A stretch of 22,041 nt of DNA from a virus, in IMG/VR virus record IMGVR_UViG_3300025133_000664, positions 1-22,041 of that record, one strand, 5' to 3'. Shown piece after piece: positions 1-19,309 of the stretch. The position numbers and the translations under genes were made by a program. Every line of letters starts with the position of its first letter. The stretch's first letter is position 1. The notes beneath the pieces were generated by a model, which saw only the letters and a program-made list of their open reading frames with translations, did no database searches and was not told the DNA's origin.

Positions 1-620
1 TTCATGTCCGCAGGCGTTCTGATGGGGACCTGTTCTCCATTGACCTCCATCGTACCTAGTTCGAGGTCGTCAAGGTCGCCAGCCAACTTATAACCATTAT
101 AGGACCAAGTAAAAACAAAGTCGTTGCTTAAAAGGGAGCCGACTGCTTGATCAAAAGAAGAAAAGTCGAGGCTCGACGTCCTCACCATCAGGACAGAATC
201 ATCAAGACTGCCCATGTAAGGAAGGGCTGTTGAGACCGGTTCAACTAGAGGCTGACCTGGGTCAGGTCTCTGTGGTAGCGATCGATATCTTATTTGGTCA
301 CTCCGCTTGAGTCCGATTAGGCGGGAGTGGGGCGGAACATAATCGTCAGGGACTTCAATCATGTTGGACTCGTCGGGTTCAGGAGTAGGATTGTTTGGGT
401 CTTGAATCCAAATACGTCCCTCTCCGTCAGAATCTAGCTGTCCATAATGCTTGCGGCTATAATATTGTATAACCGGGGGAAGATCGACCTGGAGAGGGTC
501 AACCTCGTAATCTCTTGATTGTGCTCGTCTAATTGTCGCAAGACGATTCTCTTCAGTGTTTCGTTCGCGTGCTTGGTTGCCATGGAATTCGCGTACGGAC
601 TCTGGTGTTCCTCCGGGCAT
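1..620 (-). CDS. Hypothetical protein, 3' end cut by the window (206 codons visible)
   Basis: The reading frame opens with ATG at 620 and stays open to the left edge, so the C-terminus lies outside the window. The start follows the upstream gene's TAA by two bases, and an AGGA at 631-634 lies ten bases before the ATG, which supports it. The visible part begins MPGGTPESVREFHG. It has a charged, Arg/Glu-rich stretch (residues 10-40), then a proline- and aspartate-rich stretch (about 45-125, including IWIQDPNNPTPEPDES), then a more folded-looking part with FVFTWSYNGYKLAGDLDDLE near residues 170-190. No signal peptide or membrane segment is visible. I do not recognise a family. Its place as last visible gene in a tail/baseplate operon suggests a virion protein, which is inference only. 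Confidence 0.8.
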   Translation of the reverse strand, partial: MPGGTPESVREFHGNQARERNTEENRLATIRRAQSRDYEVDPLQVDLPPVIQYYSRKHYGQLDSDGEGRIWIQDPNNPTPEPDESNMIEVPDDYVPPHSRLIGLKRSDQIRYRSLPQRPDPGQPLVEPVSTALPYMGSLDDSVLMVRTSSLDFSSFDQAVGSLLSNDFVFTWSYNGYKLAGDLDDLELGTMEVNGEQVPIRTPADM

Positions 621-622
621 AA

Positions 623-3600
623 TTATGGTATCCTAAGTTCTGGGCGTTGGTTGCCTAAGAGAAAATACTTATTGTAAATAGGTAATTCAAATATTTCTTT
701 TTTCTCTAATATAGTGGGGCCCGATGGATCAAATCCCAAATCTTCATTAACCAGGGTTCTAATTCTACAAAGAAGTGGAGCAGTCATAAGCTGAACGCTT
801 CTGAACACTTCTCCTGTGAGCGATGTCCATTCTGGTCTCCCGAGCTTCATTTCGCCCCTTGTGCCCGGTCCTCCAGCCGTGGAACCAAAACCGGATAAAT
901 ATTCGATCCTCCCCAATTGCTTATAGTTCATCCAAAATGCAAGAAATTTGGAATAAGACTTCATTGGATCCTTAATATAGGAATACTCCTCTCCGCCACT
1001 ACGAAGGCGGTCGGATGGCTGTTTGTAGCTAATAAGTCCTGAGTTGGAATCGGGCATGTCACCGAGGGTCTCGTGTTCTTGTCCATCGGATACAGGGGTC
1101 GTCAGAGTGGGACGTTTCGGCTGCCACGTCCCCACCGTCGATCCAGGTCCGCCAAGTCCAAAATTAGAATTAGAGGCGGCAATTAATATCATAGATTTTA
1201 TTTGAGCGGGGAGATGAGCGTACTCTTCCTCCAGACGAATTTTTATCTCCGGATCTCCCAGAAGCCCAAGCCGTTCAGCGGTCTGTGTCATAGAATTAAA
1301 GACATCTTGCTGATATGTAGGGCTTGACGGTAGCGGAGGGTAAGTATAAATCTCCAGGCTTGGGTCTACGGACAATTCTCCAAAAATAGCAAACAGCAGG
1401 TTGGTGGCTTCAAAAGGCGGACCAGACCCGGTAGCATCTTTGTACTCTGAGGTGAGTCTCTCTCTTCTAGCACCGGCATCCTCAAGAGATTGGACACTTT
1501 CACTTTGTCTACTCTCGTTTAAGGTGATCCCCCCGAGAATATCTGGGAACATCCTGTTTCCGAAAACCTGTCTCTGAATTCCCTGGATTTGTTCCTGGCT
1601 TAGTCCCGTAATAACTTCCAATTCCCCGGAGCGTTCAGGGGTTGAAAACTCCTCAAAGTGCCCTGGCGTCACGTCACACGCACTCTTCACCTTTAACTGC
1701 TGGTTGACTTTTGTATTTAAAGCATCCCCGTTTTTCCCACTGCTCTCTGGGGCTTGATAAAAAGACCTATTCAGGTATTCTGCCTTGCTGTTGAAGTCTA
1801 TAATTTGACACAGCAGTTCAGCGTATTCATCATAATTATATTCTGTCGTTCCCAGCGGAGCACCACGGTCTTCGGATAAATTTGCATAACGAAATTGGTC
1901 TAAGGTCTGTCCTCCTGGGGTGCGAATAAACCGAGGTGTCAAGGTGTTCCAAAGCGAAGACTCAAATGAAGTGGTGTCCAAATCCGGAGGAGGGGACCCA
2001 TTACCTGTCGCTGGTTGGAAAAAGTATTTATAAAACTCTCTTCGCACTCTTTTTTGAAAGGCGTCTGTATCAACCCGAAGTAGCCCTTGCCTATTCTGGG
2101 CTGATTGAGTGCTCCAAAGGGGCACCGGCGGGATTTGATGTTTATATATCCACGCTGACGAAGGAGCGTAGTCATATCCAAAATTATTATTTTGTCCACA
2201 AATAAAGGTTTCGTCAAAATAATGCTCACACTCAATAAGATTAAAATTATTGTCGGGAGAGGTCTGGACTCCTCCTATTTGAGAGACAGCCAAAGAAGGC
2301 TTTAGTTTTTGAACCTCTCGTGACAATAATATGTCTTCTATTTGCCCCAACAATGAACCAATAGACCTTTTAATGTTGATAAGGGAAGCAACGTTGGGAT
2401 ACCAGCTTACAACGTCTGACAGGTCTTTTTCTAGTTTTCCGTAGACTCTCCCGGCCGTTAAAGGGTTATCCATTTCTTTTTCCGTATGCGGAACAACTTT
2501 TGAATTTACATCTATCCCAAAAATTCTTAAATTTTCAACATATGATCCAAGTGCTGTTAAAAATATGGACTCGGCATTTAAACCACCCTTCATCTTAATC
2601 GTCTTAAGTTGCTCAATTAATAATCCTGTTTTCCGATTTATTATACGGGGCCCAGCTACCCCTAAAATATCAAGGACTTCGCCGACCGCAGAAAGATGTT
2701 GCCGAAGCATGGAGGTCCGAGACTTCACATAAACCAAAGACACATCTTCTAGAAGGAGGTCTACTCCGTATTGATATTTTCCCGGTGACTGGTTTACCAT
2801 ATTAGAAGAGTAATCATCGCCACCTTGGTAATATTCAATACCACTTTTTTGACTTGCAACCCGAGGCAGTGAAAGGTTTATTTTCTGAGGTGTTGGTGTC
2901 GTACTCACTGGATAAGTTGAAGTAGGTACGATCCGGGCAGGACCGGAGTCCGTCAGAGATACACTATTGTTCCCGCTAGCTGTTCTCTCCATGAATCTTT
3001 TCTTAGTCGTTATGTTTAGAATTCGACTTCGATAATTGACGCCGTTGTAAGAGAATCCGCCCAGCAAGTCGCTCTGGGCGTTTCCTCGATTATCTTGATA
3101 CAAAGCGGGAAAGACTGCTTTAGCCATAAATATATTTTTCTTATCCACCCCAAAACAATAAGAAGCATTATCCTCTTCGTTACGAGTTAACCACATCGGC
3201 GTAAAATAGTTCTGGTTTTTAATGATTTTCGCCACGCTGGAATTCAAAGAAGTGGCCTTAACGGGAGAATGATAGTCTCCATAGAGACCTGCCCCGGTGG
3301 TGGTAATTTCCGACATTTTAGTGGAAATGATATCCATTTTTCTAGCATCAGGGGACGAAATCTGGTTGGCCGCTATCATATCCATGCCAGTTGAATTCTC
3401 AAAAGACTGGACAGAAGACAAGGGAGGGTATATATTTTTAATGCCAACTGGTGTGACCTGAACTGTTCTTCCCATTCCTGTGACAAAGGCGTTTTTGTAC
3501 TGAACAGCATTTTTTCCGATGGATCTTTGGCGACGTTGGTCTGCGGGCGGAATCCCTCTTGCGGTTGCTACCTTTTCATAATCCAGATAAGCAAAAATGT

Positions 3601-4405
3601 ATATTGAAAGATGAGAGAAAGGATTAGTAACAACCTGGGGACCTGTGACACCGCCGCCGATGTCGAGCACTATGTCTGATAATGAGACATCCTCCAATAC
3701 CAAAGTTCTCTCTTCTGGTGTTCCGCCAGCGTAAACTTCCGCCACTTTTCGAGAAAAGGGATTCTTCCCCACCAACTCATTTACCGAAGCATCGTATAAA
3801 ACAGTGTCTCCTAGTGGGTGCGGAATATCTCTGATGATATCAGGATCTTGTCCATTCGCAAATCGAAGAGCAGACATGGTAGGATAGTTATGAGCCTTGT
3901 CTCTGAAGGTTTGTTGCGGGGATTCTATTTCATAAGGAGAGTACCAATCACTTGCAAAGTTTATTCCCTCTAGGGGAGCCGGCTCTGTTCTTAAAATATA
4001 CCGCCCATTGTCTTCCTGTGTAGTTCTAGTCTGAAGTCCGTGAGTAGAGAAAACTTTATCTATTTTTTGGATAAAGTCTCTCTGAGGCATAAATTTAAGC
4101 TGCCCGTCCGAAAGGTCTGTGAACATCCCCTCTTTGTTTAAGTATTCATTAAACCTCTGGGTGATAAAATCATAATACGGGGCATTCTTGCTAGAAAAGC
4201 ACGCAACCGCTCGTATGCGAAGATTAGACATATAATCTTTATTATTATACCACTTAGCTTCATTGGCGGCGGCAGATTTTTCCCGCATCGAAATATTGAT
4301 CGCCAGCCGCAAAGGACTATATTCACCGCCTCCGGAGCCTTCAGCCGTCACTTTTTTGACAATTATTTGGGGCGAGATAGGATAAATTTTACAATTTCTA
4401 GCCAT
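623..4405 (-). CDS. Large virion-associated protein of unknown function (1260 aa)
   Basis: The ATG at 4405 lies one base after the upstream stop, with GGAG nine bases before it. No signal peptide or membrane helix is visible. The N-terminus (MARNCKIYPISPQIIVKKV) leads into a mixed region. Residues about 550-700 look mostly helical, with repeated Leu/Ile/Val spacing. A cysteine pair occurs in IECEHYFDETFICG near residue 725. The last 130 residues form a compact block: KSYSKFLAFWMNYKQLGRIEYLSGFG, then PEWTSLTGEVF, then APLLCRIR, then ELPIYNKYFLLGN just before the C-terminus. I recall a similar C-terminal block in large proteins of uncultured marine phages, always unannotated, but I cannot verify this here. 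Its position two genes after the giant structural protein, in the same operon, makes a tail or baseplate role likely. No enzyme motif was found. Confidence 0.85.
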   Translation of the reverse strand: MARNCKIYPISPQIIVKKVTAEGSGGGEYSPLRLAINISMREKSAAANEAKWYNNKDYMSNLRIRAVACFSSKNAPYYDFITQRFNEYLNKEGMFTDLSDGQLKFMPQRDFIQKIDKVFSTHGLQTRTTQEDNGRYILRTEPAPLEGINFASDWYSPYEIESPQQTFRDKAHNYPTMSALRFANGQDPDIIRDIPHPLGDTVLYDASVNELVGKNPFSRKVAEVYAGGTPEERTLVLEDVSLSDIVLDIGGGVTGPQVVTNPFSHLSIYIFAYLDYEKVATARGIPPADQRRQRSIGKNAVQYKNAFVTGMGRTVQVTPVGIKNIYPPLSSVQSFENSTGMDMIAANQISSPDARKMDIISTKMSEITTTGAGLYGDYHSPVKATSLNSSVAKIIKNQNYFTPMWLTRNEEDNASYCFGVDKKNIFMAKAVFPALYQDNRGNAQSDLLGGFSYNGVNYRSRILNITTKKRFMERTASGNNSVSLTDSGPARIVPTSTYPVSTTPTPQKINLSLPRVASQKSGIEYYQGGDDYSSNMVNQSPGKYQYGVDLLLEDVSLVYVKSRTSMLRQHLSAVGEVLDILGVAGPRIINRKTGLLIEQLKTIKMKGGLNAESIFLTALGSYVENLRIFGIDVNSKVVPHTEKEMDNPLTAGRVYGKLEKDLSDVVSWYPNVASLINIKRSIGSLLGQIEDILLSREVQKLKPSLAVSQIGGVQTSPDNNFNLIECEHYFDETFICGQNNNFGYDYAPSSAWIYKHQIPPVPLWSTQSAQNRQGLLRVDTDAFQKRVRREFYKYFFQPATGNGSPPPDLDTTSFESSLWNTLTPRFIRTPGGQTLDQFRYANLSEDRGAPLGTTEYNYDEYAELLCQIIDFNSKAEYLNRSFYQAPESSGKNGDALNTKVNQQLKVKSACDVTPGHFEEFSTPERSGELEVITGLSQEQIQGIQRQVFGNRMFPDILGGITLNESRQSESVQSLEDAGARRERLTSEYKDATGSGPPFEATNLLFAIFGELSVDPSLEIYTYPPLPSSPTYQQDVFNSMTQTAERLGLLGDPEIKIRLEEEYAHLPAQIKSMILIAASNSNFGLGGPGSTVGTWQPKRPTLTTPVSDGQEHETLGDMPDSNSGLISYKQPSDRLRSGGEEYSYIKDPMKSYSKFLAFWMNYKQLGRIEYLSGFGSTAGGPGTRGEMKLGRPEWTSLTGEVFRSVQLMTAPLLCRIRTLVNEDLGFDPSGPTILEKKEIFELPIYNKYFLLGNQRPELRIP
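631..634 (-). promoter_or_regulatory. Ribosome binding site (AGGA) for the left-edge gene
   Basis: On the minus strand AGGA ends ten bases before the ATG at 620. It sits inside the last codons of the preceding 1260-residue gene, so translation of the two genes is probably linked. It supports the choice of start for the partial gene. Confidence 0.5.
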
Positions 4406-5395: not shown

Positions 5396-5551
5396 CTAAG
5401 ATTTCCAGTCCCTGGGATCATCCCAGCCGCCCATGCCAACATTAGCGGCTCCGCCATATCTAAAGTGGTCCGGTTTGTCGGGGCCCATGCTAACATTAGA
5501 GGCTCCGCCATATCTAAAGTTTTCCGGTTCGAAGCCGCCCATGCTAACATT
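5396..5551 (-). repeat. C-terminal tandem repeats of 54 bases (18 residues) in the giant protein
   Basis: Two full units lie at 5498-5551 and 5444-5497, with a shorter, divergent third at 5396-5443 that runs into the stop codon. The full units read NVSMGGFEPENFRYGGAS and NVSMGPDKPDHFRYGGAA. The third begins NVGMGGWDDP and ends DWKS. At DNA level the units share a nearly identical block coding for FRYGGA and another coding for NVSMG; the segment between them differs mainly by substitutions that change residues. The repeats are in frame, so changes in copy number would leave the gene intact. Confidence 0.9.
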
Positions 5552-8500
5552 GGCAGTAGAGTTACGCACTACCATCGGAGTCGAAAATTGACCAAAGGAC
5601 GGGGCATCAAGTGCGGGAACATAGGTAGCATTATTTAGATTTTCTGCTAACGTCCCTACAGAAGTGGAAGCCATAAGCGAGTCAGCATTAGGAGGCAACG
5701 TCACTCCGGTGATCCTAATATCTTGTGGCAGACGCGGAGGTTCTTGTTGAATCTGGTAGTCTGCTAGTTCTCCTGCTAACTCAGGTCGAAATCCTATCTT
5801 GGTTTGTAGGTTTGCGGTCTCAACCAAGGACATATAATCGTAAGGCCAATTATAAGTTGGGTCAGATACTGAATTATTAAAGAAATAATTTTGCCGCTCA
5901 GGTGGGTTGGCAGGATGTCGCTGGATTGTGTCCAATAGGCGATTGTCTACCCCATCTATTTCGTTGGCAATTAATGCAGAGTAATTAGAGTAACCCTTCT
6001 GTTTTACTTTGAAAATTATCCACCTAACTTGGGGACAGAATCCATTGCCGGAGTCTTCAGTTATTGTGTCCATGAGGTCTATTTTAGGCAAACCGCTCCC
6101 ATCTTGAATCCCCTCCTCTATCTCCTTCTGTAAAAGCTCCGGATAGGCAAGTTCGTCTTCTCCTGTTGCTCTTCCCGGCATGTAGTGATCAATCGCCACC
6201 ACGTTACGTTTCATATTTGTTCCAATTTCCGGTAATATTCCTTGCCAGATGTCAGCTAAATCTTGTTTGCTTAATTTTATCTGGTGTTCAAATAAGTAAA
6301 CGATTGGAACCCTGGACGGGTCAGAGTTCATAAGTATGTTACTATAGTCGTCATCGTCGGCGAATGGGTTAATAAGTCCGTCATCATTGGGATAATTGGT
6401 CGGGACCAAGGAGGATAGACGAGTTGCCAAAGGGGGCGGCATCGAATACTTGGTGAATGCTCGTCGGAATTTCCGTAACTTGGGTCCGAGGTCATGACCC
6501 GATCCTTGCAAGGTCACCAAGCGTTGACGATTTTGCTCGTCATAGTAGAATGGCAATGCCAGTATAGCCTCAGAGAGGCTCTTCTCTCCTCCTGTCGCTA
6601 ACTCACCGAGCCGCTTGGCTTTGGACAGATCTATGCCGCTGCTCATAACTTCTTCAGGGGCGAACCCAACTAAGTCCGCCAAAGATCCTACCTCTTTTCC
6701 GTTATTTATAGCCTCTTGAACGGGCCATGGGATTTTCTTTGCATAAGTATAATACCCCTCAGGGGCCCCTGTTACAACATTGGGATCGCCCACTAAAATA
6801 TAATCTGGCTCTGTAAGCAAAGAGGTATGGTCCTTGATGTATAAATATACTCCCTCGTTATTAGTCGGCGACATTCCATATTGATGCCACATACCATATG
6901 TTTGCTGGTTAAAGTTAAGAGATATGTTACTGTTGTCGGTGTCTACTGATCCGGAAAAATCATAAGAGTTGCCCGGACCTGGAAAGTCTAAGATCGGGGA
7001 CTCCCATTTTGGCATAATTACCCAGCGGTTGGGATTCTTTGATGTATAGGTCCCATTATCTATCTTAAAACTATTATTGAGCGTAATGGAGGCATCAATA
7101 TCCATGCGGTTTTGCCAGGCCCTATTCCACTCATAGGCAGGAGAACTACTTAAAGTTACTTCTGTACCATCGAAGGAGGTAAATGACCCCGAAGAATAAT
7201 CATAAAAGCTTCCGCTTTCATTTCTGTACTGGACAAACAGTTCAGGATTATTTTGTCCTGTTGACGTTAAAATATCGTTAAGAGATACCCTTTTATCTTG
7301 ATTAGGGGCATAAAAGAAACGAGCCACGCTCGGTCCATAATAATATGGAGGGGTAAAAGGTGCAAATTCTCCTCGGTGTTTTGGCCACGCTGACCCGCTG
7401 GGGGTTGATTTTCCGACGCTATAAGAGGCATTGTTCCAGCTTCCGCCGCTCTCTGATCCAGTAGCGGTCGGCGGACCAAACGCATAGGGATTATTATACA
7501 TATTAAAGTTGTCAGTTTTCATTAGTCCAACTTCCATCATGTAGATTTTGTTGCCGCTGACAAGTTTATGGTTAACATCGTCGCTGTCGTTTGGTCCAAA
7601 TTGAGATACAAACTTTGTTAAATACCCAGAACTGTGGTTGGCGGTTGGCTTTTTCTTTAAGAAAAATTCAGGAACGGAGGCCAAGAAGTTGGAAATGGCC
7701 TTCTTGTAAAGAGAGTCTTCAACTTGTCCGGAAATACTCCCAGAGATATCATTTTTTGTTACGTTACGAATATCTGAAATAATAAGAAAATCTCGAAGAC
7801 TAGTACTAGAGATGTGAGGCTCTGGGTCGAGGATAGCCTCGAAAGGTAATCTGTCAGTCCAGAAAAATTTATCCACGTTGTCGATTGTAAAATCAAAATT
7901 CCCAGCGGAAGGGGTTCTTGGGCGGCGGCGGCCGCCAGGTACCGAGACATAATCCCCTCCAGAGGTTCCAAGATTTCCGCTCAGGGCCCCTTTTAAAGGC
8001 TGTGGTGCTTCGGTTGCAGCAAACTGGGCACCTCCCCAGGGGCCACGGCGAACCGGGTGATTAACAGCGACGCCCGACTTAATAGAGTTATAGAGAATCC
8101 CTGGGGCGAAAAATGGCTTTAAAATAGAACGCCAAGGTCCCTTAGTCGAATCATCGCCCGCATATATAGCATTAGAAGAATATGAAGACGAAAAAAGAGT
8201 GGCTATTTGCAGTGTCCTGTTCATGGGAAAAAAGCCATTATAAGGAAGAAGCTTTAATGTGGCATTTGACGTGAGCTGAAAATGTTTAGGATACTTATTA
8301 AACTCCAGGTCCCGCCCAGACATAAATTGCTTCAAGTATTCTATCGTGTCACTGTCTGAGTATCTTGTGAAAAAGTCTGTATTGCTTCCGTTATAATTTT
8401 GAGTGTTTGCTCCCGTCAGTTCTACCGAGTTTGGAACATAAGAAAGAGGATCGCCAGAGGTTCTGTAGGTCGAAACCCAATTACTCATAATATACTCTGG

Positions 8501-11500
8501 AATAATTGTATTCTCTTTTCCCGACAGACGGACGCTTTCTGCGTATTTTTCGTAGGTGTCATAAGAAGGCTCTTTAGGTGGCAGCGAGGTGCCGCGGGAA
8601 GGTCCATCTATTATCTTCCTGTCTTTTCCGGCGGTCCATGGCGGACGAGTGGTTGCTCCGCCTGGAGCCAACGCGGTGGCTTCCATTTTCAAAGAGACAC
8701 TATTTTGGACTTCTGTAGGAACTGAATATACATATTGGGCAGCTACTATGGATGACGGCTCATAGGTGGCACCGGCACCCAGTCCGTAAGAAGACTGGTC
8801 TATGATGGTCCCATAATTTGTCATCATCAGCTCTCCGGCTGCCATGGTGGCAACATCGGCTAGTAAAAGCCTGTTACCGGCTGATCCTGTCCAGGCAGGC
8901 AGATAATCTGAATATAAATAACTATCTAGAGGCCAAATTGAGGCGTTTGCTGGTTCAGAAGTGGCATATGCAACATCGCTAGGGACTGATTCGCTTACCT
9001 GTATTTCATACCCTTGGGATGTTTGAAAAATGCGATTGCCGGCTCGGGTACTTGGTTTTTGAACCCTGTTAAACTGCCTATTCCAGCCAGCAATATTAGA
9101 ACTCTGATTGTATTGAGACACTGACAGTCCAAAATCGCCGGTCGCAACCAAATCCGCAGCATTGCTATTATGGTAGACCGATATGTCAGATTTCCAAAAA
9201 TTATCAACAAACGAAAGGCGGGAGCGAGTACCCGACAAATAGGTATACACCTCTTTGGGATAAATGGTTTCGGAATAAGTCAACATATTGATTCGTTGAA
9301 TCCCGTCAGAAGATGGAAGCACTCCATCTAGCCGATGGTTTCTCATAATTTCGTAAGGTCTCTTGATCTTATTATAGCTGAACTTGTAAGGGTTTCCCGT
9401 GGCTTGATTAAGACGCTTATTCGCAAATCCGCAAAGCATATTTCCATATGAAAACTCCATCTTCGCCGGAACTTTCTGCCCGTAGCGAGTTGAAGAAGGG
9501 GACCCTAAATTAGTTTTGAGATTAGCTCGCATTGGCTTAAACTTAGAAGTAAGCGGTGGTTCAATAAATCTTGCCCCCAAAGAATAAGTTAAAATATTGG
9601 CGGATGAGCCGGAGGTGGTTCCGGCACGTCCTGCTCGGTCAGAGGCAGTTCTTGTGCCAGCAGAGGCGTGGTACTTTCCCTCTAGTGCTACAGAATTTCT
9701 ATCATAGGATGTTATTTCCAGCGATGGTGGGAATTCATAAATATTATTTTTCCGTAAATAAGCCCCTTGGGCGTTTTGTCCTGCCCGTAGTTGTTGCCAC
9801 GGGACAAACCCATACTGGTCCGACCACACAAATTTATTTTTTCCTGATGTGCCGGAAACTAGAGCGGAACCAAAATTATAGTTCACTGCGGATCTGCCGT
9901 CTTCAAAGTCCGTATAAGTGGCAGGACTTGTTGGTGATGGAAAATTCTCTTGAAGTTCGGTATTCCCCTCAGAGCCAGCCATTCCTTGATAAAGCGATAC
10001 GCCCAAGCCAGACCAAGTGTTATCCACTGCTGAAATATCGATATCCCCAGCATATAACGCTGATAATATCGCCTCAGAGAACGACGATCCCCATTCTGAT
10101 ACAGTTGTCATGAACCCAACGCCATACTCCCAGCTTCCGGCGGCTGTTTGGGACGGGGGGCTGCCGATGGGTATAGACGCGGTACCTGTAAAAGTACACT
10201 GATTTCCGCTAGTATCTGTCAGCTTGATGTAGATGGCGTCCCACTTGGCCTCTAGTCCCGACGTGGGAACTATGGTTGCCACAGCCTGGTTAGGGAGTGA
10301 GACTAGAGAGGAAGACATTCTCGAAATATTTTGAGGATATCGAGAGCCCGAGAGAACATACTGATCATAAACATGAGTGGGTGTAACAGTCACGGAGTTC
10401 CCAGGAAAATAATCAGAATAAGGGTTCCAACCGCCAGCGGCAAAGTTCATAAACCATTCAGTCCGGTCTGCTCTTGGAATTGGAGTCGTAACATACCCAT
10501 TGTCGTATGCTGTGCCAGTGACCGGACCAAGGACAAAAGGCCAAACACTATAGTCTATTGCCGTCTCAATTCTCTCAAGACCATTTCTTTGAGTTTTCTC
10601 CACCGGCTTGGCGTCGCCAGACCCATTCAGAATCATCGTGGACCAATTGCTCTGTCCGCCAAAAGCTACGTTTATATCAACACCATCGTTTAAATTTTGT
10701 AATGCCTGGGGTCCATTTAAGTTTAAATACAAATAGGGGAATGATATAAACCCTCCCCAAAAAGTGTATCCCCTAAATATTTGTCGTAGTCCAGCATGTG
10801 AGTAAAGTAATTTATAATTTCTCCAAGGAAGGGCATTATTGGGAGAAAGTTCATCCGAAGAAATATCCCTAAACTGCTGTTTAGATGTATATTTACCCCC
10901 AGGGCTGGCGAAGCGGCTCGTAATAACCGACTTGGTCGTTCTCCTCGTAGAAATCTCGCGAGGGGCGGCATAATCGACAGACCCGCCATTCCAAGAACTT
11001 GTTAATCCTGCTTTCGTTGAAGAGAGACGAGGGTCCACCTGAACTCCTCCTGGCGTCACCCCCCGGTAAGATGGAGGCACCACAAACGCAGAGGCAGCGG
11101 TGGCACCAGCTAGTTCAAAAATTTGATAATTAGGATTATTAAAAACAAAATCGATATTGGCTGTTTTTCGTCCCGTCGAACTCACCACCTCATAATTGTT
11201 GGTAAAATTCCCAATAGGTCTGCGACCATCGGCTTGAGAGTAAGAGCCTGTATAGGATTTTAGATTGGTTATGTTTACCGGACGCTTGGCTCCTAGTCCG
11301 CGAGCATATTTCCCCTGAGGAGTGGAAACTTGTCCGTAAGAATAGTCGTCATAAGAAGAGGACCAGTTGGTTGGGCGAGGTCCTATCCCCTCTACCCTGT
11401 AAGGAGAACTACTCGTCAAAATAAGCCTAAATGCTTCGGGTCTATCATTTTGGGAAAATATCCATGCATGGCGAGATTTGAGTCCCCCAACATGTTCAGA

Positions 11501-12103
11501 AGTGAACGGGCCCTGTAGGGAAACATCATGCTGAATCGGGAAAGGGGCGTCTTCGTGAATATTGGTGATATCCACCCAACTAGGCATAAATTCATTAGTA
11601 AAGGCTTTATATCCCTTATCTGTCGAAAGAATACTTGAACTATAAACGCTAAAGGGCGTTAAGACTTTTCCTCGATAATTAATACCGTCCTTGCTCGCTG
11701 TAAATGCTAGTTTTCTCTTCTGGTTAAGTCCTGAGTCGTCATCACACCTAGCAAAGGGTACACCAGATTCATTAAATGCGAGCCCAGACTGAAAACCACT
11801 AAATTCAAAATCAGTTATTTTCCTTTTTTTCGAAAGGTCCTCATTAATACCACTATAAATAGAAGTACTGATTTCTCCGGACAAACAAACCAAAACACTT
11901 GAAGTAAGTCTGCCCTGCACTGCTTTTAAAATGCTGTTTCGGCTGGATAAGATTCCGGACTTTGTCCCTAAGGTTGCTCCGGAACCGGATGTGAAAGTGT
12001 GTCTTTCAGCCTTATTTTTCCACCAATCGCAATTTTTAGACTGGAGTCGTGGGATGGGGGCATGGTTGAACCTCCACGCAGGGGCGGGACATCTTTTGGT
12101 CAT
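5396..12103 (-). CDS. Giant virion structural protein, probably tail/baseplate (2235 aa)
   Basis: The ATG at 12103 overlaps the upstream stop by four bases (ATGA) and has a strong GGGGAGGA site seven bases before it. The sequence is rich in Ser, Gly, Asn and Tyr, mostly beta-looking, with no membrane segment or signal peptide. Landmarks: NCDWWKNKAERH near residue 28; a block with HEDAPF, LQGPFTSEHVGGLKSRHAW and DRPEAFR (about 180-225); LPFEAILDPEPH (about 1416); YMMEVGLMKTDNFNMYNNPY (about 1520); FYAPNQDKRVSLNDIL (about 1595); GMWHQYGM (about 1740); VYLFEHQIKLSKQDLADIWQ (about 1930); VRWIIFKVKQKGYSNY (about 2020). I recall similar landmarks in giant proteins of uncultured marine phages, where no function is assigned. 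The last 50 residues are short tandem repeats. Following the wedge genes, it is probably a peripheral baseplate or fibre-like component; its exact location in the virion is unknown. Confidence 0.9.
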   Translation of the reverse strand: MTKRCPAPAWRFNHAPIPRLQSKNCDWWKNKAERHTFTSGSGATLGTKSGILSSRNSILKAVQGRLTSSVLVCLSGEISTSIYSGINEDLSKKRKITDFEFSGFQSGLAFNESGVPFARCDDDSGLNQKRKLAFTASKDGINYRGKVLTPFSVYSSSILSTDKGYKAFTNEFMPSWVDITNIHEDAPFPIQHDVSLQGPFTSEHVGGLKSRHAWIFSQNDRPEAFRLILTSSSPYRVEGIGPRPTNWSSSYDDYSYGQVSTPQGKYARGLGAKRPVNITNLKSYTGSYSQADGRRPIGNFTNNYEVVSSTGRKTANIDFVFNNPNYQIFELAGATAASAFVVPPSYRGVTPGGVQVDPRLSSTKAGLTSSWNGGSVDYAAPREISTRRTTKSVITSRFASPGGKYTSKQQFRDISSDELSPNNALPWRNYKLLYSHAGLRQIFRGYTFWGGFISFPYLYLNLNGPQALQNLNDGVDINVAFGGQSNWSTMILNGSGDAKPVEKTQRNGLERIETAIDYSVWPFVLGPVTGTAYDNGYVTTPIPRADRTEWFMNFAAGGWNPYSDYFPGNSVTVTPTHVYDQYVLSGSRYPQNISRMSSSLVSLPNQAVATIVPTSGLEAKWDAIYIKLTDTSGNQCTFTGTASIPIGSPPSQTAAGSWEYGVGFMTTVSEWGSSFSEAILSALYAGDIDISAVDNTWSGLGVSLYQGMAGSEGNTELQENFPSPTSPATYTDFEDGRSAVNYNFGSALVSGTSGKNKFVWSDQYGFVPWQQLRAGQNAQGAYLRKNNIYEFPPSLEITSYDRNSVALEGKYHASAGTRTASDRAGRAGTTSGSSANILTYSLGARFIEPPLTSKFKPMRANLKTNLGSPSSTRYGQKVPAKMEFSYGNMLCGFANKRLNQATGNPYKFSYNKIKRPYEIMRNHRLDGVLPSSDGIQRINMLTYSETIYPKEVYTYLSGTRSRLSFVDNFWKSDISVYHNSNAADLVATGDFGLSVSQYNQSSNIAGWNRQFNRVQKPSTRAGNRIFQTSQGYEIQVSESVPSDVAYATSEPANASIWPLDSYLYSDYLPAWTGSAGNRLLLADVATMAAGELMMTNYGTIIDQSSYGLGAGATYEPSSIVAAQYVYSVPTEVQNSVSLKMEATALAPGGATTRPPWTAGKDRKIIDGPSRGTSLPPKEPSYDTYEKYAESVRLSGKENTIIPEYIMSNWVSTYRTSGDPLSYVPNSVELTGANTQNYNGSNTDFFTRYSDSDTIEYLKQFMSGRDLEFNKYPKHFQLTSNATLKLLPYNGFFPMNRTLQIATLFSSSYSSNAIYAGDDSTKGPWRSILKPFFAPGILYNSIKSGVAVNHPVRRGPWGGAQFAATEAPQPLKGALSGNLGTSGGDYVSVPGGRRRPRTPSAGNFDFTIDNVDKFFWTDRLPFEAILDPEPHISSTSLRDFLIISDIRNVTKNDISGSISGQVEDSLYKKAISNFLASVPEFFLKKKPTANHSSGYLTKFVSQFGPNDSDDVNHKLVSGNKIYMMEVGLMKTDNFNMYNNPYAFGPPTATGSESGGSWNNASYSVGKSTPSGSAWPKHRGEFAPFTPPYYYGPSVARFFYAPNQDKRVSLNDILTSTGQNNPELFVQYRNESGSFYDYSSGSFTSFDGTEVTLSSSPAYEWNRAWQNRMDIDASITLNNSFKIDNGTYTSKNPNRWVIMPKWESPILDFPGPGNSYDFSGSVDTDNSNISLNFNQQTYGMWHQYGMSPTNNEGVYLYIKDHTSLLTEPDYILVGDPNVVTGAPEGYYTYAKKIPWPVQEAINNGKEVGSLADLVGFAPEEVMSSGIDLSKAKRLGELATGGEKSLSEAILALPFYYDEQNRQRLVTLQGSGHDLGPKLRKFRRAFTKYSMPPPLATRLSSLVPTNYPNDDGLINPFADDDDYSNILMNSDPSRVPIVYLFEHQIKLSKQDLADIWQGILPEIGTNMKRNVVAIDHYMPGRATGEDELAYPELLQKEIEEGIQDGSGLPKIDLMDTITEDSGNGFCPQVRWIIFKVKQKGYSNYSALIANEIDGVDNRLLDTIQRHPANPPERQNYFFNNSVSDPTYNWPYDYMSLVETANLQTKIGFRPELAGELADYQIQQEPPRLPQDIRITGVTLPPNADSLMASTSVGTLAENLNNATYVPALDAPSFGQFSTPMVVRNSTANVSMGGFEPENFRYGGASNVSMGPDKPDHFRYGGAANVGMGGWDDPRDWKS

Positions 12104-15100
12104 CTTCCTATCCTCCCCTCAATGATGGGATAATTTCCTACTACAGCCCCAGGGTACCCGTATCTCATTTTGTGCCTTTCTAAGACATGACTTTCTATCA
12201 TCGTCCGAACGTCTTCAGCGTGTTTTGCTGATGCGGGGAAAAGTTGTTGAATTATCTCTCCCATAGAAGTATCTACCCATTTATAAAAATCTAAATATTT
12301 TTCAAAATCTGGCACGCCTTCAACCCTTCTAAAAAATATTTCTCTTAATTTTTCCATCTGTTTGTAGTTATCACGATATTTGTTGACCGGCTCGCCAATA
12401 AGGTTGTGAAAGTCGTCAATCGAGGCAAAGAAATTCAATATGCGGTCAGATATGCTCCGATTCATACTTTTCTCTACCGCAAAAAAGATACTACTCGGTC
12501 GCACATCTGTTCCAAAAGCTTCGTCATCATGGCTAAGAATTTTTATCATCTCGTCACTAAGAGACTCTTCAGGGGGACGCAGCTTGCTGGTGTATACATA
12601 TTCTTTAAATGCCGCAGGCTCGGAGGCAGCAAAGAAGTCGGCACGTCCGGGGTGTTTTCGCAAATTAGCATTACTTAGTGCCCTCCCTTGATAGGTAGAC
12701 AAATAATCCAGTCCAACTGATCCTGATGAGACATCTGTTACCCTGAACTGCCCGTCAATATTGCTGGAGCTTATGTTTTGGAAATCCCAATTCAACGCCA
12801 GTGTTTGAATTGCAGGGATATAGCTCCTGTTGATTGGGCCTGCGGAGGCAGGTTTTTGGAAAGTATAGGCATTCCGCTCCGGGTGAAGTCGTCCAAAGCT
12901 ATCAACGTCCTTTGCGTGTAAATCTATTACGGTAGGACTTAAATAGTCGTTCCAATATCTTATACTGGATGCTTTTATATCCGACAGCGTGTCCACTTGT
13001 CCATTAAAGTTAGTCCGATGAGCCCCAGCATAAATTCTTTTCGAACTGGTTAGATGAAGACTTCCGGAAGGATAGTTTAACGAAGAAGATATAGAAAATG
13101 AGTTTTGTTTAAGTCCCGCCTCATAATTTACGCCATAAAACTCTAAAATCCAGCCGGACCCGGCACCGGTGTTAGTCCCGTCTACGGTAGTTGCAAAAGG
13201 ATATTGATCTGGGCGGAGGGAGACGGCAACATTCCACTTTTGATTATCATAGACATTCCTGAAAACATCCGTTTTCAAAACTTCCTCTCCTGCTCTGTTT
13301 TTTATTACAAAATATGCGTCCTGTTGAAATCCGGTCTGGACGTTGTTTTTAGCTGGGCTAGCTTCAGCCTTGACCGCATAAATTTGCCACCCATAATCTC
13401 CCGCGGCAACTGGCCAGTTTAAGTTTGTAGAGGTAGCATTATCTCCCTCATCGGGCGGAGTATGAAATCCGAACAAAGAAGAAGTTAAAATGGGGGGCGG
13501 TGTGGACCGGAGCGTGTTCATTTGAGATTTGTCTGGAAAAAGAAACTCCCCCTGAAGCGTAAAGGCGTACTCATTTAGTTCTTCGGAGCCGGACAATATA
13601 CTATAAGAAGATGTATACGAACTACTCGGGGCGTACTGATAGATTGTGGAATAAGGCGATTCGCTATTCCTGAATCCTGTAAAATCTATATATTTTTTAG
13701 TAGAGGGTCCTTCCCTGTAGCTACTGCTCAGGGTGTAGTCTGCCTCATTGGGATACACGCCCACAGTCATTATTTCCTCGCCAATACCGAAGCATCTTAT
13801 AAGGTTTCTTATCGACTTTTCTGTGCCCTTTGACTTAAGGATATATGGCAAGTTGTTATAAATGTTTTTATAGATAGAATTTTTAGTATGAATAAGAGTT
13901 TTTTGGAAACTTATTTGCTCATCTCTTTCTAAAAACTGTCCCATTGCCCCAATGTTCTCAAATATTTCCGGTGCCTCTATTCCGAACTCTTCTATAAGCC
14001 GGTCAGTATAAGGAAATTGAAACATGCTTCCTGTGGTAGAAGTTTGCTCATATGACCTATCTTTTATTTTGTTCAAGGCGGATATTTGTAAATGTAGGGT
14101 GTCAAAATAACTCGCCATGATCTGTAACAGGCTGCGTAGCTCATTGTTTCCCGACTCCTCCTCTTCTATGATCCACGAAGGTATTTGATTTTTTAAGCTT
14201 CCGTTGTTCGTTGCGTCGTAACTACTTCCACTCAGGATTAGCCCAGCCCTATTAGTAGAAACTCTTGGGTTGGCAGGGCGAACAATAATATCTGGCTTTT
14301 CGGGGCGGCCTGACTGGCTCATCGCACTCATTGCCGACAGCGTACTTCTTGAACTAGACGAGTCGTAATTTATAAATGCCCCGTTAGACAGCCGGCCCGA
14401 GTAATCGAGGACAATTCTATCAACCGAGTCCGCACCCACAATTCCCTCGTTAAATTTATAATAAACTCCGAGATCAACATTGGCGTTATATTTATCTGCA
14501 CCCCCGTCAACATGAGAAAACCAGTGGCGACCAATTTCTTGGGCGTTTCGGTTAGATTTCCAAAAACGAAATTCATCTATAGAACCAGATAATTTTGCCC
14601 AGCCTAAGCGGCTTGGGTCTGAGCTATCTGCTGCACCAAAGGGGGCTGTCCGCAGTCCTCCAATATTAGAAGTGAGAGATCCCGTCACAAGTTTAATTTC
14701 GCCGGCTTGGTGTCCGCTGGTTGGCAACGTAGAACTCGTTATCTCGCCCTCGTGAAGAGATCCGTCAACATAAAAATCGATGGTGGGATTTGTCTTGCTA
14801 GTGTTAAAGGAGAAAGAATAATTATGCCAGGAGCCACTGTTGAACGATAGTCCCCCCAAGGTAGGAACTGACTGAGTAAAAAAGCCGGTGGTGCCCGACA
14901 GCATCGTGACCAAAAAACGGTCTTCGCCCTGTCCAGGGGTGGAACCCGACATAATCTCAAAAGTCATTCTGCCATATTCCGCAGAAGAGCTTACTACTCC
15001 ATTCCACAAATCAAAAATGACCTGATTCCGCGATTGAATGCCGCCGGCCGGAATTCCTGTGTTTTTCTTAAAGAAAAACTCCACGGTGGAACCTGAAGGT

Positions 15101-15597
15101 CCTCCAAAATTAAGATTGGAGGTTCTATTAGTTCCCACATTATAAACTGTATCTTTGTGAGGTCCCCCGTAGGTTTCAATATACTCCGCGGAAGAAGAAT
15201 AATATCCATTTGTTTTAGATGTGACGGGTCCGTAAGTGTCCCCAATCGTGATAAACCCCGTAGATCTGGGGTAGTTTTCTAGAAAAATATATTTCTCTAA
15301 AGGGTTTAAGTCATTATAAAATTTTGTTTTTTCAAACGCCGAGCCGTCATAAGGATAGTACCCAGATAAAAAGTCATATGCTCTTCTGTAATATTCCTCA
15401 GCGGAACCAAACTTAACAAAGTTGGAAGGATTTGAGTAATCAACGTTAGGAAGAAAGGTGTCCCTTTTCTTGATGCTCTCGCTTAAATGTCCTTGAGATT
15501 CTATGCCGTCGCCTAGTTGACCAGGGGAGGAATCTTTAAGAAATTTGCTAACTATTGTAGTTTGCTTATTTTTATCGAATAACTTCTTTAGACTCAT
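12100..15597 (-). CDS. Tail protein I / gp7-like baseplate wedge protein with two LamG-like domains (1165 aa)
   Basis: Order of parts: an N-terminal lead (1-155) with Tyr-rich helical-looking segments; a LamG/concanavalin-like domain (about 160-390) with STVEFFFKKN, SWHNYSFSFN, IDFYVDG and the typical ending GSIDEFRFWKSNRNAQEI; a helical part (about 465-610) with YNNLPYILKSKGTEKSIRNL, resembling the 'HKGT..AI..L...FG' core of the tail protein I family (P2 gpI; the Tri2 or T4 gp7 position of the wedge); a second LamG-like domain (about 670-905) with WNVAVSL, RIYAGAHRTNF and SIRYWNDYLS; then a C-terminal helical region (about 1030-1150) with SMNRSISDRILNFFASIDDF and VLERHKMRYG. The length is near that of T4 gp7 (1032 aa). 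The start overlaps the upstream stop by four bases (ATGA) and lacks a good ribosome binding site. The LamG calls are strong for the first domain and moderate for the second; the I/gp7 assignment is moderate and supported by the neighbouring J/gp6 gene. Confidence 0.82.
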   Translation of the reverse strand: MSLKKLFDKNKQTTIVSKFLKDSSPGQLGDGIESQGHLSESIKKRDTFLPNVDYSNPSNFVKFGSAEEYYRRAYDFLSGYYPYDGSAFEKTKFYNDLNPLEKYIFLENYPRSTGFITIGDTYGPVTSKTNGYYSSSAEYIETYGGPHKDTVYNVGTNRTSNLNFGGPSGSTVEFFFKKNTGIPAGGIQSRNQVIFDLWNGVVSSSAEYGRMTFEIMSGSTPGQGEDRFLVTMLSGTTGFFTQSVPTLGGLSFNSGSWHNYSFSFNTSKTNPTIDFYVDGSLHEGEITSSTLPTSGHQAGEIKLVTGSLTSNIGGLRTAPFGAADSSDPSRLGWAKLSGSIDEFRFWKSNRNAQEIGRHWFSHVDGGADKYNANVDLGVYYKFNEGIVGADSVDRIVLDYSGRLSNGAFINYDSSSSRSTLSAMSAMSQSGRPEKPDIIVRPANPRVSTNRAGLILSGSSYDATNNGSLKNQIPSWIIEEEESGNNELRSLLQIMASYFDTLHLQISALNKIKDRSYEQTSTTGSMFQFPYTDRLIEEFGIEAPEIFENIGAMGQFLERDEQISFQKTLIHTKNSIYKNIYNNLPYILKSKGTEKSIRNLIRCFGIGEEIMTVGVYPNEADYTLSSSYREGPSTKKYIDFTGFRNSESPYSTIYQYAPSSSYTSSYSILSGSEELNEYAFTLQGEFLFPDKSQMNTLRSTPPPILTSSLFGFHTPPDEGDNATSTNLNWPVAAGDYGWQIYAVKAEASPAKNNVQTGFQQDAYFVIKNRAGEEVLKTDVFRNVYDNQKWNVAVSLRPDQYPFATTVDGTNTGAGSGWILEFYGVNYEAGLKQNSFSISSSLNYPSGSLHLTSSKRIYAGAHRTNFNGQVDTLSDIKASSIRYWNDYLSPTVIDLHAKDVDSFGRLHPERNAYTFQKPASAGPINRSYIPAIQTLALNWDFQNISSSNIDGQFRVTDVSSGSVGLDYLSTYQGRALSNANLRKHPGRADFFAASEPAAFKEYVYTSKLRPPEESLSDEMIKILSHDDEAFGTDVRPSSIFFAVEKSMNRSISDRILNFFASIDDFHNLIGEPVNKYRDNYKQMEKLREIFFRRVEGVPDFEKYLDFYKWVDTSMGEIIQQLFPASAKHAEDVRTMIESHVLERHKMRYGYPGAVVGNYPIIEGRIGR
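12111..12118 (-). promoter_or_regulatory. Strong ribosome binding site (GGGGAGGA) for the giant gene
   Basis: The purine run lies seven bases before the ATG at 12103 on the minus strand and inside the last codons of the 1165-residue gene (IEGRIGR stop). It is the strongest Shine-Dalgarno-like sequence among the gene junctions here. Combined with the ATGA overlap, it suggests both coupling and high independent initiation for the giant protein. Confidence 0.7.
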
Positions 15598-17090
15598 GGT
15601 GACGTTTCTTGAACTCGGAATTTAAATATTTCTGGCTGCTCTTTGTATTGCCCATCTATATTGTAGAGAAATTGCAAACTATACATGTATCCCGGCTCTA
15701 AATACGACGTGTCTAAATCAAAATAGTTGCCGCTCATATCGTAGGAAAGCTTCGTATATTTATTACTTCCAGTCCCAAATGCAATGATTTCCATATTATC
15801 AATATCTCTGTATAGTCTATAATATGACTCTTCAATAGGGGTAGGAGTAATCAGAGTGTTGGCGACAGTATAGATGTTAAGGCTACTACGGTTGTTTCTT
15901 TTAGCAAAAATTCGAAGCCTTTCTTTTTGCCCTTTCATATACGACGATTTTAAATTAGAAATCGAAGTAGTATATTCTTCCCCGTAAACGACCTCATTTG
16001 CATAAATGTTGGAAGGGGAAAAAGAGCCCGTAAAGTACTGAGTAGATCCCGAAAACCACACATCGTTAATAGACTCAAAACTGCTGGTGATAGCGAAAGA
16101 ACAAGAGTAGGACCCCGTTATAGGAATGCCGTTTTCATAGACTAGTCCGCCTGTGATATTGGTGACAGGCTCGCCATCTTTATTAACCACTACAAGCTTG
16201 CTTCCACTGGGGGATCCACTGCTTCCACTGTAAAAACTTACCAAAAGCTTTTGCTGGTCGGGCCAATAGGCTTCAAGTCCGGGAATATTTTTGAATTGTC
16301 CTCGAATTCTGTTGTACAAAAATAAAGAATTTAGGTTATCCGAAGCAGGTGCCAAGGCACTGCTAAGATATGTATTCCCCCTGTCATCTTGCCGGGAAGA
16401 ATCCCAGCGTGCTTCTACGCATGGTCTGTTCAAGAAATAATCACTGGTTCGAGAAAAGAATTTTTTAGTATAAAACGTTCCCTCTGATCCCGAGATGATA
16501 TTATCGGGGTACTTTATCAATAGCCCGTAATTCTGATATTCTCCCGACCTCCAGCGATCCATTAAAAAATTTATGTTCAAATCTAGGTTTTCCATCCCCC
16601 CAGAAAAGAAATAGCTTGCCGAATAGTCGCCGCCGGCATTGCCTAGGTAATCTCCCCCTGGTTGATCCCACTCAACTGAGTCCGAGGCAAAAATCCAGTT
16701 ACTTTCACCAGCGTCGGTAAACTCTTCCATGTCCAAGCCACGTCCCTCGGTCCAGGCCCTAGTTCCCATTGCAACATCCAGGCTATAACTAAGCGGGGTC
16801 GTGCCACCATGTGGAGCGTTATAGAGCCGCAGAATATAGTCAACACTAGAAGACGGAAGGACCCCGCTCGATATATCATTTTGAATCGCATCTACATCGA
16901 AACGCAGCAATATTCTCATCTGTTCCGCATTAGTGGCACTAATAGAAGCTGAAGTTTGTCCTTGAATTACAAAAGCCTCTAAAATATCTGAGGCCCCCAT
17001 GTTGGATCCCGTACCTCTTGTAAGGAGATTCTCCTTAAATGCATTAGTGATTGTATTATCCGCTAGGAGGTTGTATTTTTTAATAGCCAT
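15594..17090 (-). CDS. DNRLRE/CBM-like beta-domain phage structural protein (498 aa)
   Basis: The N-terminal half looks like a DNRLRE-type beta-sandwich, a fold related to carbohydrate-binding modules. It has ADNTITNAF, then GTGSNMGASDILEAF (about 27-41), RILLRFDVDAI (about 58-68), WTEGRGLDMEEF (about 112-123) and DYFLNRPCVEARWDSS (about 216-231). The second half (about 240-498) is Ser/Gly/Tyr-rich and beta-looking, including YWPDQQKLLVSFYSGSSGSP and a C-terminal YMYSLQFLYNIDGQYK. No catalytic motif, signal peptide or membrane segment is seen. The ATG at 17090 overlaps the J-like gene's TAA by one base (TAATG), with GGGGTGG seven bases upstream. Its place between the J-like and I-like wedge genes points to a baseplate adaptor or peripheral wedge protein. 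I recall similar proteins at this position in uncultured marine phages. Binding of a carbohydrate is inferred from the fold only. Confidence 0.85.
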   Translation of the reverse strand: MAIKKYNLLADNTITNAFKENLLTRGTGSNMGASDILEAFVIQGQTSASISATNAEQMRILLRFDVDAIQNDISSGVLPSSSVDYILRLYNAPHGGTTPLSYSLDVAMGTRAWTEGRGLDMEEFTDAGESNWIFASDSVEWDQPGGDYLGNAGGDYSASYFFSGGMENLDLNINFLMDRWRSGEYQNYGLLIKYPDNIISGSEGTFYTKKFFSRTSDYFLNRPCVEARWDSSRQDDRGNTYLSSALAPASDNLNSLFLYNRIRGQFKNIPGLEAYWPDQQKLLVSFYSGSSGSPSGSKLVVVNKDGEPVTNITGGLVYENGIPITGSYSCSFAITSSFESINDVWFSGSTQYFTGSFSPSNIYANEVVYGEEYTTSISNLKSSYMKGQKERLRIFAKRNNRSSLNIYTVANTLITPTPIEESYYRLYRDIDNMEIIAFGTGSNKYTKLSYDMSGNYFDLDTSYLEPGYMYSLQFLYNIDGQYKEQPEIFKFRVQETSP

Positions 17091-18883
17091 TATTTAACCA
17101 CCCCTCTTACATCGTCGCTTGGTAATAAAACCTCAGCCGCTGCATTAGAGGGAATTATCAAAAACCTTCCATCGTCGCTCATGTTTTTATCAATATTATA
17201 AGAATACTGGCTATAAGCTCCTCCCACTTTGTTGCTGAACTCTATACTTATGGTGTCCGTTACGCCTGGGACATCATTCAGCAATTTATAAATATCGGAG
17301 AGATAAACAGCCTCCCCGATTCCCCCTTTAACATTTAAAAACTTGTCTTGTATCTCTTGCGAGCACCTTTGCAAAAGCTCATACCGATTAACATCTAAAT
17401 CGGCAAGAACTTCAAAATTAATCCCAATATTTATAATTTTTCCGTCTAAGATATCAATTGTATCATTAATCATGCGGCGACCGTCGAGCCATGCCTTAAG
17501 ATTTTGTTTAAGTGTTTGATTAGGTACTGCAAAGTTCCCGTCGGAATCCTCAGATAAAATATACATGTTTAAGTTCTGTTTGTAAGAATCTTTATCCCTT
17601 ACCACGTTAGCTCTCTTTATTCTTCCAAATTTTGGAGGTAATCGGTAGGCCATCGTGATATAATCGGTGCGAGTTACTGCTCGATTTTGTGTGGAATAAG
17701 AGGCAAAAGCTCGTTGTCGAATATCTTCTGACGAAAGCAAAGAAGCGTCGCCCAGTATAGGCTCTTCATTTTCTACCTCCAGCGATGCCTCCACAGTATT
17801 CATGACAGTCGAAGTCAAAGAAGTGCGATCATCAAATACAAGACTAGAGTTGACAATAGTGCCAATAGCACCAACAGTGGCATTGATGCTGTCCGAAGTA
17901 TTAGCGGTGTAGGTAATAGTCAGTGTCGTGTTGACAGGAGCGACGCCCAATTTGTCAGATTGTATCAGATTTGTTGGATCAAAAGTCTCGTCTGTAATAT
18001 AATTTCTACCCGTAACGTTCAACACTACATCGGCGGGATCAGCTATTATGTTACCCGTTATATTGTCGGCAGATCCGTGCCCAAACTGTATGTAGGTGTT
18101 TGAGATAGTATCGTGATCGACTATAAATCGACGTGGGGATGGGACGGCTCTCAATTTATATGGAACAGCTATTTTATCAGAGTTGTAATTAGGAATCTCT
18201 TTATAAATAACATCCTGGGTCAGATAGGGAACCTCATAGTACTCATTCCCCTGTGAATCAACCACAGAGATGATCTCGCTTATAAGCTTCTTTTTTAGTT
18301 TATGTTTATAAAAACGCTGGTAGTTTCCCACGGACACAGTTTCCACATAGCTTTCTCCAGAAACTATTTGTCCGAAGGCCTTCACGGCAAAATAAGTAGG
18401 AACACCAGAATCCGCATCTACTCTAGCAACCGTGATTTCATTATTCGTGTTAGAAAAATCAACATCCTCATTGAGGGAATAGGTGGCTCCCCCGTCCGAA
18501 ACCAGCGTCGCCCCTTTTTGTATAGTTGGTATATATCTTTGATCAGGACCTCTTCCACTAGTAGATGCTGGAACTAGGACATAAAATGCACACATGCCTG
18601 TGCTACGAGCAGAGCCTGGGATTTTAAAACCCAGTTGTTTTGACAAACGGACAACATTCTTATATTCAATAGCTGATTCTAAGAAACTCTCGTTGGCTTG
18701 ATAATCTGTATAGAAAGACAATTGGTCCCCCACATATGCGACCATATCCGTCATAAGCGACCCGAACGAAGCCTCGCTGAAATCTTTATAGGTGCTGGGG
18801 TAATATCTCCGTGCATAGTTGACTAGATCGTTTTTGATACTTTCGAAGTCTCTACTGGTATAATTTATTGGTCTTTTTGCCAT
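17090..18883 (-). CDS. Baseplate wedge protein, T4 gp6 / baseplate J-like (597 aa)
   Basis: This is the core wedge subunit of contractile tails; two copies join one I/gp7-type subunit to form each wedge, and the ring of wedges opens at infection. The N-terminus is characteristic of T4-like gp6: NYTSRDFESIKNDLVNYARR, then FGSLMTDMVAYVGDQLSFYTDY and RLSKQLGFKIPGSARS (residues 7-95). A baseplate J-type core follows around residues 383-415 (SSEDIRQRAFASYSTQNRAV, TRTDYITMAYRLPP). The C-terminal part carries LKAWLDGRRMINDTIDILDG and DIYKLLNDVPGVTDTISIEF. The length is a little below T4 gp6 (660 aa). The start at 18883 follows the gp25 stop by 21 bases, with AAGGA about twelve bases before it. Its order directly after gp25 is the usual one in contractile tails. 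Confidence 0.95.
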   Translation of the reverse strand: MAKRPINYTSRDFESIKNDLVNYARRYYPSTYKDFSEASFGSLMTDMVAYVGDQLSFYTDYQANESFLESAIEYKNVVRLSKQLGFKIPGSARSTGMCAFYVLVPASTSGRGPDQRYIPTIQKGATLVSDGGATYSLNEDVDFSNTNNEITVARVDADSGVPTYFAVKAFGQIVSGESYVETVSVGNYQRFYKHKLKKKLISEIISVVDSQGNEYYEVPYLTQDVIYKEIPNYNSDKIAVPYKLRAVPSPRRFIVDHDTISNTYIQFGHGSADNITGNIIADPADVVLNVTGRNYITDETFDPTNLIQSDKLGVAPVNTTLTITYTANTSDSINATVGAIGTIVNSSLVFDDRTSLTSTVMNTVEASLEVENEEPILGDASLLSSEDIRQRAFASYSTQNRAVTRTDYITMAYRLPPKFGRIKRANVVRDKDSYKQNLNMYILSEDSDGNFAVPNQTLKQNLKAWLDGRRMINDTIDILDGKIINIGINFEVLADLDVNRYELLQRCSQEIQDKFLNVKGGIGEAVYLSDIYKLLNDVPGVTDTISIEFSNKVGGAYSQYSYNIDKNMSDDGRFLIIPSNAAAEVLLPSDDVRGVVK

Positions 18884-18904: not shown

Positions 18905-19309
18905 TTAATTAGTTATTTGTGAACTTATTGATAAGATGTCCCCAGACCCCTCATCTCCCAGATGATATTTCACAACCAGCTTTACTTGGTTATCTGCAAG
19001 AGCCGGATCTTGTTCATTTGTGATAAACTCTACCGAGGATAAATTAATATAAGGAGTGTACTTAGCACTCTGTATGTTTATCTCCTCAACTATTTGCTGG
19101 TAAGTGTTGGAATTCATTTGTTCAAATAAAAAAGATCGAAGGCCTACACCAAAACCTGGCAACATAACTCTTTCACCAGCAGAAGTCAAGAGAAGATTTT
19201 TAAAATTTTGCTTAGCCGATTGTCTGAAGTCTTTGTTTAAATGATAAGGTCCATCTCGCTGGTCGAGGACCAGAGGCAACGCTACTGACACTCCTTTCAT
19301 TTTACTCAT
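18905..19309 (-). CDS. Baseplate wedge subunit, T4 gp25-like (134 aa)
   Basis: gp25-type proteins (also TssE in type VI secretion) sit on the inner baseplate ring and template the first disc of the contractile sheath. The match is clear from the length (T4 gp25 is 132 aa) and from the central signature KNLLLTSAGERVMLPGFGVG followed by LRSFLFEQ (about residues 36-64). After this comes an amphipathic helix (YQQIVEEINIQSAKYTPYIN) and a C-terminal beta strand pair ending ILSISSQITN, as in the family. The ATG at 19309 is chosen because GAGG lies seven bases upstream; a second ATG at 19300 has no comparable site. It follows the upstream gene by 27 bases and precedes the J-like gene by 21. Confidence 0.95.
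   Translation of the reverse strand: MSKMKGVSVALPLVLDQRDGPYHLNKDFRQSAKQNFKNLLLTSAGERVMLPGFGVGLRSFLFEQMNSNTYQQIVEEINIQSAKYTPYINLSSVEFITNEQDPALADNQVKLVVKYHLGDEGSGDILSISSQITN

Follow-up and report, generated by a model that had tools for sequence, protein, structure and literature searches.

Sugar-binding folds on contractile-tail wedge proteins are already known. The Herelleviridae Bacillus phage Vp4 encodes Gp119 (baseplate wedge 3, 831 aa), a wedge protein with CBM folds which binds host cells; these folds are absent from its homolog, Deep-Blue Gp177 (341 aa) (PMC11406892). In AlgoCIS, the wedge component Alg11 contains two carbohydrate-binding modules, and the gp7-like part of Alg12 was termed a re-engineering hotspot by the authors (PMC8894135). 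Also, XM1 gp17 anchors spikes through a loop and its C-terminus (PMC10457771). With these precedents, the general idea of the wedge protein described here is already known. The protein, of 1165 aa, resembles Vp4 Gp119 in having folds of a sugar-binding type on the wedge; the two were compared by description, and they differ in that Gp119 has CBM folds, not LamG folds, with cell binding shown. AlgoCIS is an extracellular injection system and not a phage, and its modules lie in the Alg11 cage around the spike, not in the gp7-like part (PMC8894135). No earlier report of LamG folds on a wedge protein, of a natural empty site or of a fusion was found in the literature searched, which leaves novelty unproven.

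Concerning gene position, P2 gpI, T4 gp7 and XM1 gp17 are all encoded after gpJ/gp6, as is the 1165-aa protein. P2 gpI also shares a KGT motif with it, but has 176 aa and no LamG domain. The Kyanoviridae gene after gp6 is found at the same position and encodes giant single polypeptides (for example, 4067 aa in SynMITS9220M01, named ‘baseplate wedge initiator’, and 5195 aa in P-SSM2); unlike the 1165-aa protein, the Kyanoviridae proteins have no Pfam LamG domain and the giant ones contain a YHYH domain. KGT is present in the members from Melnitz-1, a Pfam Baseplate_wedge protein, and P-RSM6. In P-RSM6 (locus L086:16102-28471) a single 25.7-kb frame of about 8,570 aa is annotated after gp6; its first 4,123 aa match Baseplate_wedge and YHYH and, weakly, a CBM. 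Two cultured phages have homologous wedge proteins. Microcystis phage Mel-JY01 WWT39511.1 (1336 aa) has the same gene neighbourhood, a different N-terminal part and no Pfam LamG match; a literature search on this phage found nothing. Wedge gene 161 of Flavobacterium phage immuto (1265 aa) is homologous in the core and the C-terminal part, lacks the insertion of LamG-like domain 2, and no domain 1 was seen in it.

Gene order and distribution of the wedge protein family

The window, that is, the whole stretch of DNA analysed, is an IMG/VR record of 22,041 bp. The genes considered lie on the minus strand, where an open 900-aa frame is followed by these genes:

18905-19309, minus strand: gp25-like protein, 134 aa (Pfam GPW_gp25, 7.5e-12)
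17090-18883, minus strand: gp6/gpJ-like baseplate wedge subunit, 597 aa (phrog_219, E 5e-22)
15594-17090, minus strand: protein of 498 aa, encoded between the gp6-like gene and the wedge gene and kept in nearly all relatives
12100-15597, minus strand: baseplate wedge protein at the gpI/gp7 position, 1165 aa, ATG start (ORF, relatives, AlphaFold2 model)
5396-12103, minus strand: downstream protein, 2235 aa, whose start overlaps the wedge stop (ATGA) and which is fused to the wedge protein in most relatives

Frames of 319, 1260 and 206 aa follow the 2235-aa gene. The 1260-aa (623-4405) and 206-aa (3-620) frames have a homolog in none of the fetched loci, many of which stop earlier. The 597-aa protein matches the immuto ‘baseplate wedge protein’ over nearly its full length; the 498-aa protein has no family match in Pfam or PHROG. 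The wedge gene sits directly after the gp25-like, gp6-like and 498-aa genes, an order seen in nearly all loci.

Relatives of the 1165-aa protein are encoded in 174 IMG/VR loci, and a second contig (L002) holds an identical copy. Among phage records, immuto was the only tblastn match, at the core. A contractile sheath family was matched in seven of the 12 larger relative contigs, in five of them above the family cut-off; in relatives L087-L090 the sheath matches lie in open frames of about 980-1170 aa, which is large for a tail sheath. The 1165-aa protein belongs to a large, mostly uncultured myovirus family. An attempt at host assignment gave only four MAG contigs, of mixed taxa. Also, a core relative at 43% identity is found in L092 (CP070664.1), labelled as the chromosome of a WOR-3 bacterium; this is either a prophage or a misassembly.

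Domain organisation of the wedge protein

An AlphaFold2 model of the wedge protein was built from 63 family sequences (mean pLDDT 74, pTM 0.51). The initial annotation had placed two LamG-like domains in a gpI/gp7-type wedge protein, one ahead of the core and one between the core and the C-terminal part, and structure prediction of the protein alone gave beta domains at these places, with pLDDT there mostly 70-94. The predicted parts are as follows:

15265-15597, minus strand: N-terminal helical part, residues 1-111 (AlphaFold2 model; residues 1-33 of low confidence)
14305-15264, minus strand: LamG/pentraxin domain 1, residues about 112-431 (fold alignment and Pfam Laminin_G_3)
13738-14280, minus strand: tail protein I-like helical core, residues about 440-620 (sequence profiles, KGT motif)
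13822-13830, minus strand: KGT motif, residues 590-592, common to P2 gpI, immuto, Mel-JY01 and some Kyanoviridae wedge proteins
12883-13725, minus strand: LamG-like domain 2, residues about 625-905, between the core and the C-terminal part (fold alignment, homologous flanks)
12490-12882, minus strand: linker/beta region, residues about 906-1036 (AlphaFold2 model)
12160-12489, minus strand: conserved C-terminal helical part, residues about 1037-1146, with an ESHVLER motif at its end (conservation, homology)

Both LamG regions are found in all 62 aligned relatives, which are 36-54% identical to the window protein, so their presence is not due to chance. In PDB sequence searches the whole-protein profile gave one chance match only (E 0.73), and the profiles of domains 1 and 2 gave none. 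When the two domain profiles were aligned with each other (E 0.33), the C-terminal LamG signature alone lined up.

Domain 1 is securely predicted, from model and sequence, to be a LamG/pentraxin jelly-roll. Pfam Laminin_G_3 matches residues 207-355 in the full-length scan (3.4e-5, 24.5 bits, below the cut-off of 27.6) and passes the cut-off when domain 1 is scanned alone (2.4e-6, 28.2 bits); of 31 relatives, 30 have the match in domain 1, the best at 1.7e-14. In VIA-align the top match is the PAPP-A LG domain (Z 19.1, rmsd 3.2, 220 aligned residues), followed by 4DQA, a Bacteroides protein that putatively binds carbohydrate (Z 17.9), and by pentraxins (Z 16-17, rmsd about 3, about 195-212 aligned). 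The fold named by the initial annotation is therefore borne out for this region (Z about 16-19, Laminin_G_3), with the limits moved from residues 160-390 to about 112-431. Foldseek rows to neurotoxin-complex chains were read as shared jelly-roll matches. Domain 1 is found in the window family only; immuto and Mel-JY01 share a different N-terminal part (E 1.7e-66, spanning the N-terminal part and the core), the place of which domain 1 would occupy.

Domain 2 is probably LamG-like by fold only and not a Laminin_G member; the evidence is moderate, because Pfam Laminin_G matches this region in none of 32 relatives. Alignment of the whole model to chains with two LG domains covers both regions (2jd4, 327 residues, 112..942; 3r05, 343 residues, 113..950), compared with about 177 residues for a single LG domain. 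The proposed second LamG domain is accordingly supported with moderate strength as a fold and not as a member of the Pfam family, and its limits change from 670-905 to about 625-905. The Mel-JY01 family aligns in the domain 2 region as well (E 0.0018), as far as the typical LamG end signature.

The two flanks of domain 2 are homologous to immuto (core, E 2.3e-15 in hhalign; C-terminal part, E 8.6e-8). Compared with immuto, domain 2 has therefore been inserted, or else immuto has lost it. The C-terminal helical part is the most conserved region of the wedge protein, based on regional identity among relatives. From KGT to the C-terminal motif there are 182 aa in immuto and 180-182 aa in most immuto-type rows (226 in one), counting only rows where the motif was found; the distance is 466 aa in Mel-JY01, 466-471 aa in Mel-JY01-type rows and at least 511 aa in the window family. 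These alignments show a natural ‘empty site’ for the domain 2 insertion in a cultured phage, immuto. Other inserts of about 120-155 aa, with no Pfam match, are seen at differing wedge sites in seven loci (L016, L007, L008, L067, L021, L058 and L079), for example after residues 184 (L067), 207 (L016) and 963 (L021). In L016 (5049-17797), near copies are also found in the homolog of the 498-aa protein and at two places in the downstream protein; in L007 and L008 they lie downstream.

Concerning the core, hhalign joins the window family to Mel-JY01 WWT39511.1 over the core, the domain 2 region and the C-terminal part (E 5.6e-18). A profile of ten gpI proteins aligns in register at KGT with the window family (E 0.015), the Mel-JY01 family (0.0064) and immuto (0.026); the E values are single-pair and the three lineages are not independent. 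KGT by itself turns up in 26% of shuffled sequences, so it is the register, the context and the homology that count. The TIGR02242 tail-protein domain matches 16 of 45 cores (best only 0.0017) and Tail_P2_I just two (best 0.099). A core-only model (residues 430-642) was poor (pLDDT 64) and gave no significant PDB fold match in Foldseek or VIA-align. In hhalign, T4 gp7 had no sequence match to the wedge protein, although the two may yet be related. Of the kinship to known wedge proteins first suggested for the remainder of the protein, the KGT alignment to the P2 gpI profile was recovered and the match to T4 gp7 was not. Based on sequence and gene context, the 1165-aa protein is probably the wedge protein of the gp7/gpI position, its gpI match resting on a short motif. 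Context, homology and fold alignments together support a gpI/gp7-type wedge protein with two LamG-like domains, one of them between the core and the C-terminal part.

Downstream protein and the role of the LamG-like domains

Homologs of the 2235-aa downstream protein, which has no Pfam match and no convincing PHROG match, are present in 76 loci. In most relatives a single ORF spans both the wedge and the downstream protein, with about 2,800-3,600 aa where the locus contains most of it; several fused ORFs run past the locus end. The two are split in the window, its twin L002, L009/L017/L019, L018 and L029, and in the tree the split L009 falls inside a clade whose other rows are fused. A sequencing error as the cause of the split was ruled out by the ATGA overlap and the identical split in L002.

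Identity between relatives varies little from region to region: domain 1 is as conserved as the core, and domain 2 lies about 8-10 points below it in distant pairs, so that the LamG regions evolve about as slowly as the core and the gp6-like neighbour. In close pairs the wedge protein tracks the gp6-like protein and the downstream part is mostly more divergent (wedge against downstream, for example, 97% against 75% and 82% against 49%); in a few pairs (L046/L053, L003/L016) it is as conserved as the wedge. Being as conserved as the rest of the wedge protein, the LamG domains seem to be fixed parts of the baseplate, or to give a weak hold on sugars, rather than to be the main means of recognising the host, and a main role as swapped host-range modules was rejected because of the flat identity. 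The conservation favours a structural or docking role, in which a shared conserved glycan could still be bound.

The reading we prefer, with a probability of about 0.6, is a contractile-tail wedge protein with conserved structural LamG modules and host recognition by the downstream protein. The KGT core and the C-terminal helices would bundle with two 597-aa gp6-like subunits, as a heterotrimer, in each of the six wedges, and the two jelly-roll modules, the second inserted between core and C-terminal part, would decorate this wedge protein. They would most likely be structural or docking modules at the baseplate periphery, perhaps with weak glycan contact, and the faster-evolving downstream protein, part of the same polypeptide in most relatives and a separate gene with the ATGA overlap in the window, would carry host recognition.

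It is possible, with clearly lower probability, that the LamG domains bind host surface glycans and that the wedge itself joins in adsorption, like Vp4 Gp119. The fold family includes many sugar binders, with 4DQA among the best matches of domain 1, and Vp4 Gp119 decorates host cells while its CBM-less homolog Gp177 does not (PMC11406892). Domain 1 also has variable stretches at residues 201-225 and 251-300. Relative to the core or the gp6-like protein, however, no hypervariability is seen in the LamG domains, which are retained in every aligned relative. LamG folds serve protein–protein contacts too, as between neurexin and neuroligin. The receptor contact through the wedge that the initial annotation had suggested is thus not supported, and neither are LamG folds standing in place of separate fibres, given that large proteins (2235, 1260 aa), either separate or fused, are encoded next to the wedge on its downstream side.

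We consider it improbable that this is a phage lineage in which the wedge protein, two lectin folds and a distal arm for host contact are united in a single chain of about 3,000 aa or more in each wedge, covalently linking recognition to the contraction trigger, with LamG as the surface-binding part. It is very improbable that the protein belongs to a fibre or spike, as a subunit bearing LamG domains, and not to the wedge. Many other viral proteins have LamG-like folds, and the core-only model is without a fold match; but the gene directly follows the gp25/gp6-like genes in nearly all loci, immuto and Mel-JY01 have a homolog of its core encoded at the equivalent place, and its KGT motif recurs in a Kyanoviridae protein matched by Pfam Baseplate_wedge.

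The wedge protein illustrates the remodelling of a conserved baseplate part, two lineages having a lectin-type fold that a third lacks. Cultured phages exist on either side of the insertion (Mel-JY01 and immuto), which makes its role directly testable. The fusion of wedge and downstream protein in most relatives offers a system where a signal from the periphery to the sheath could run along one chain.
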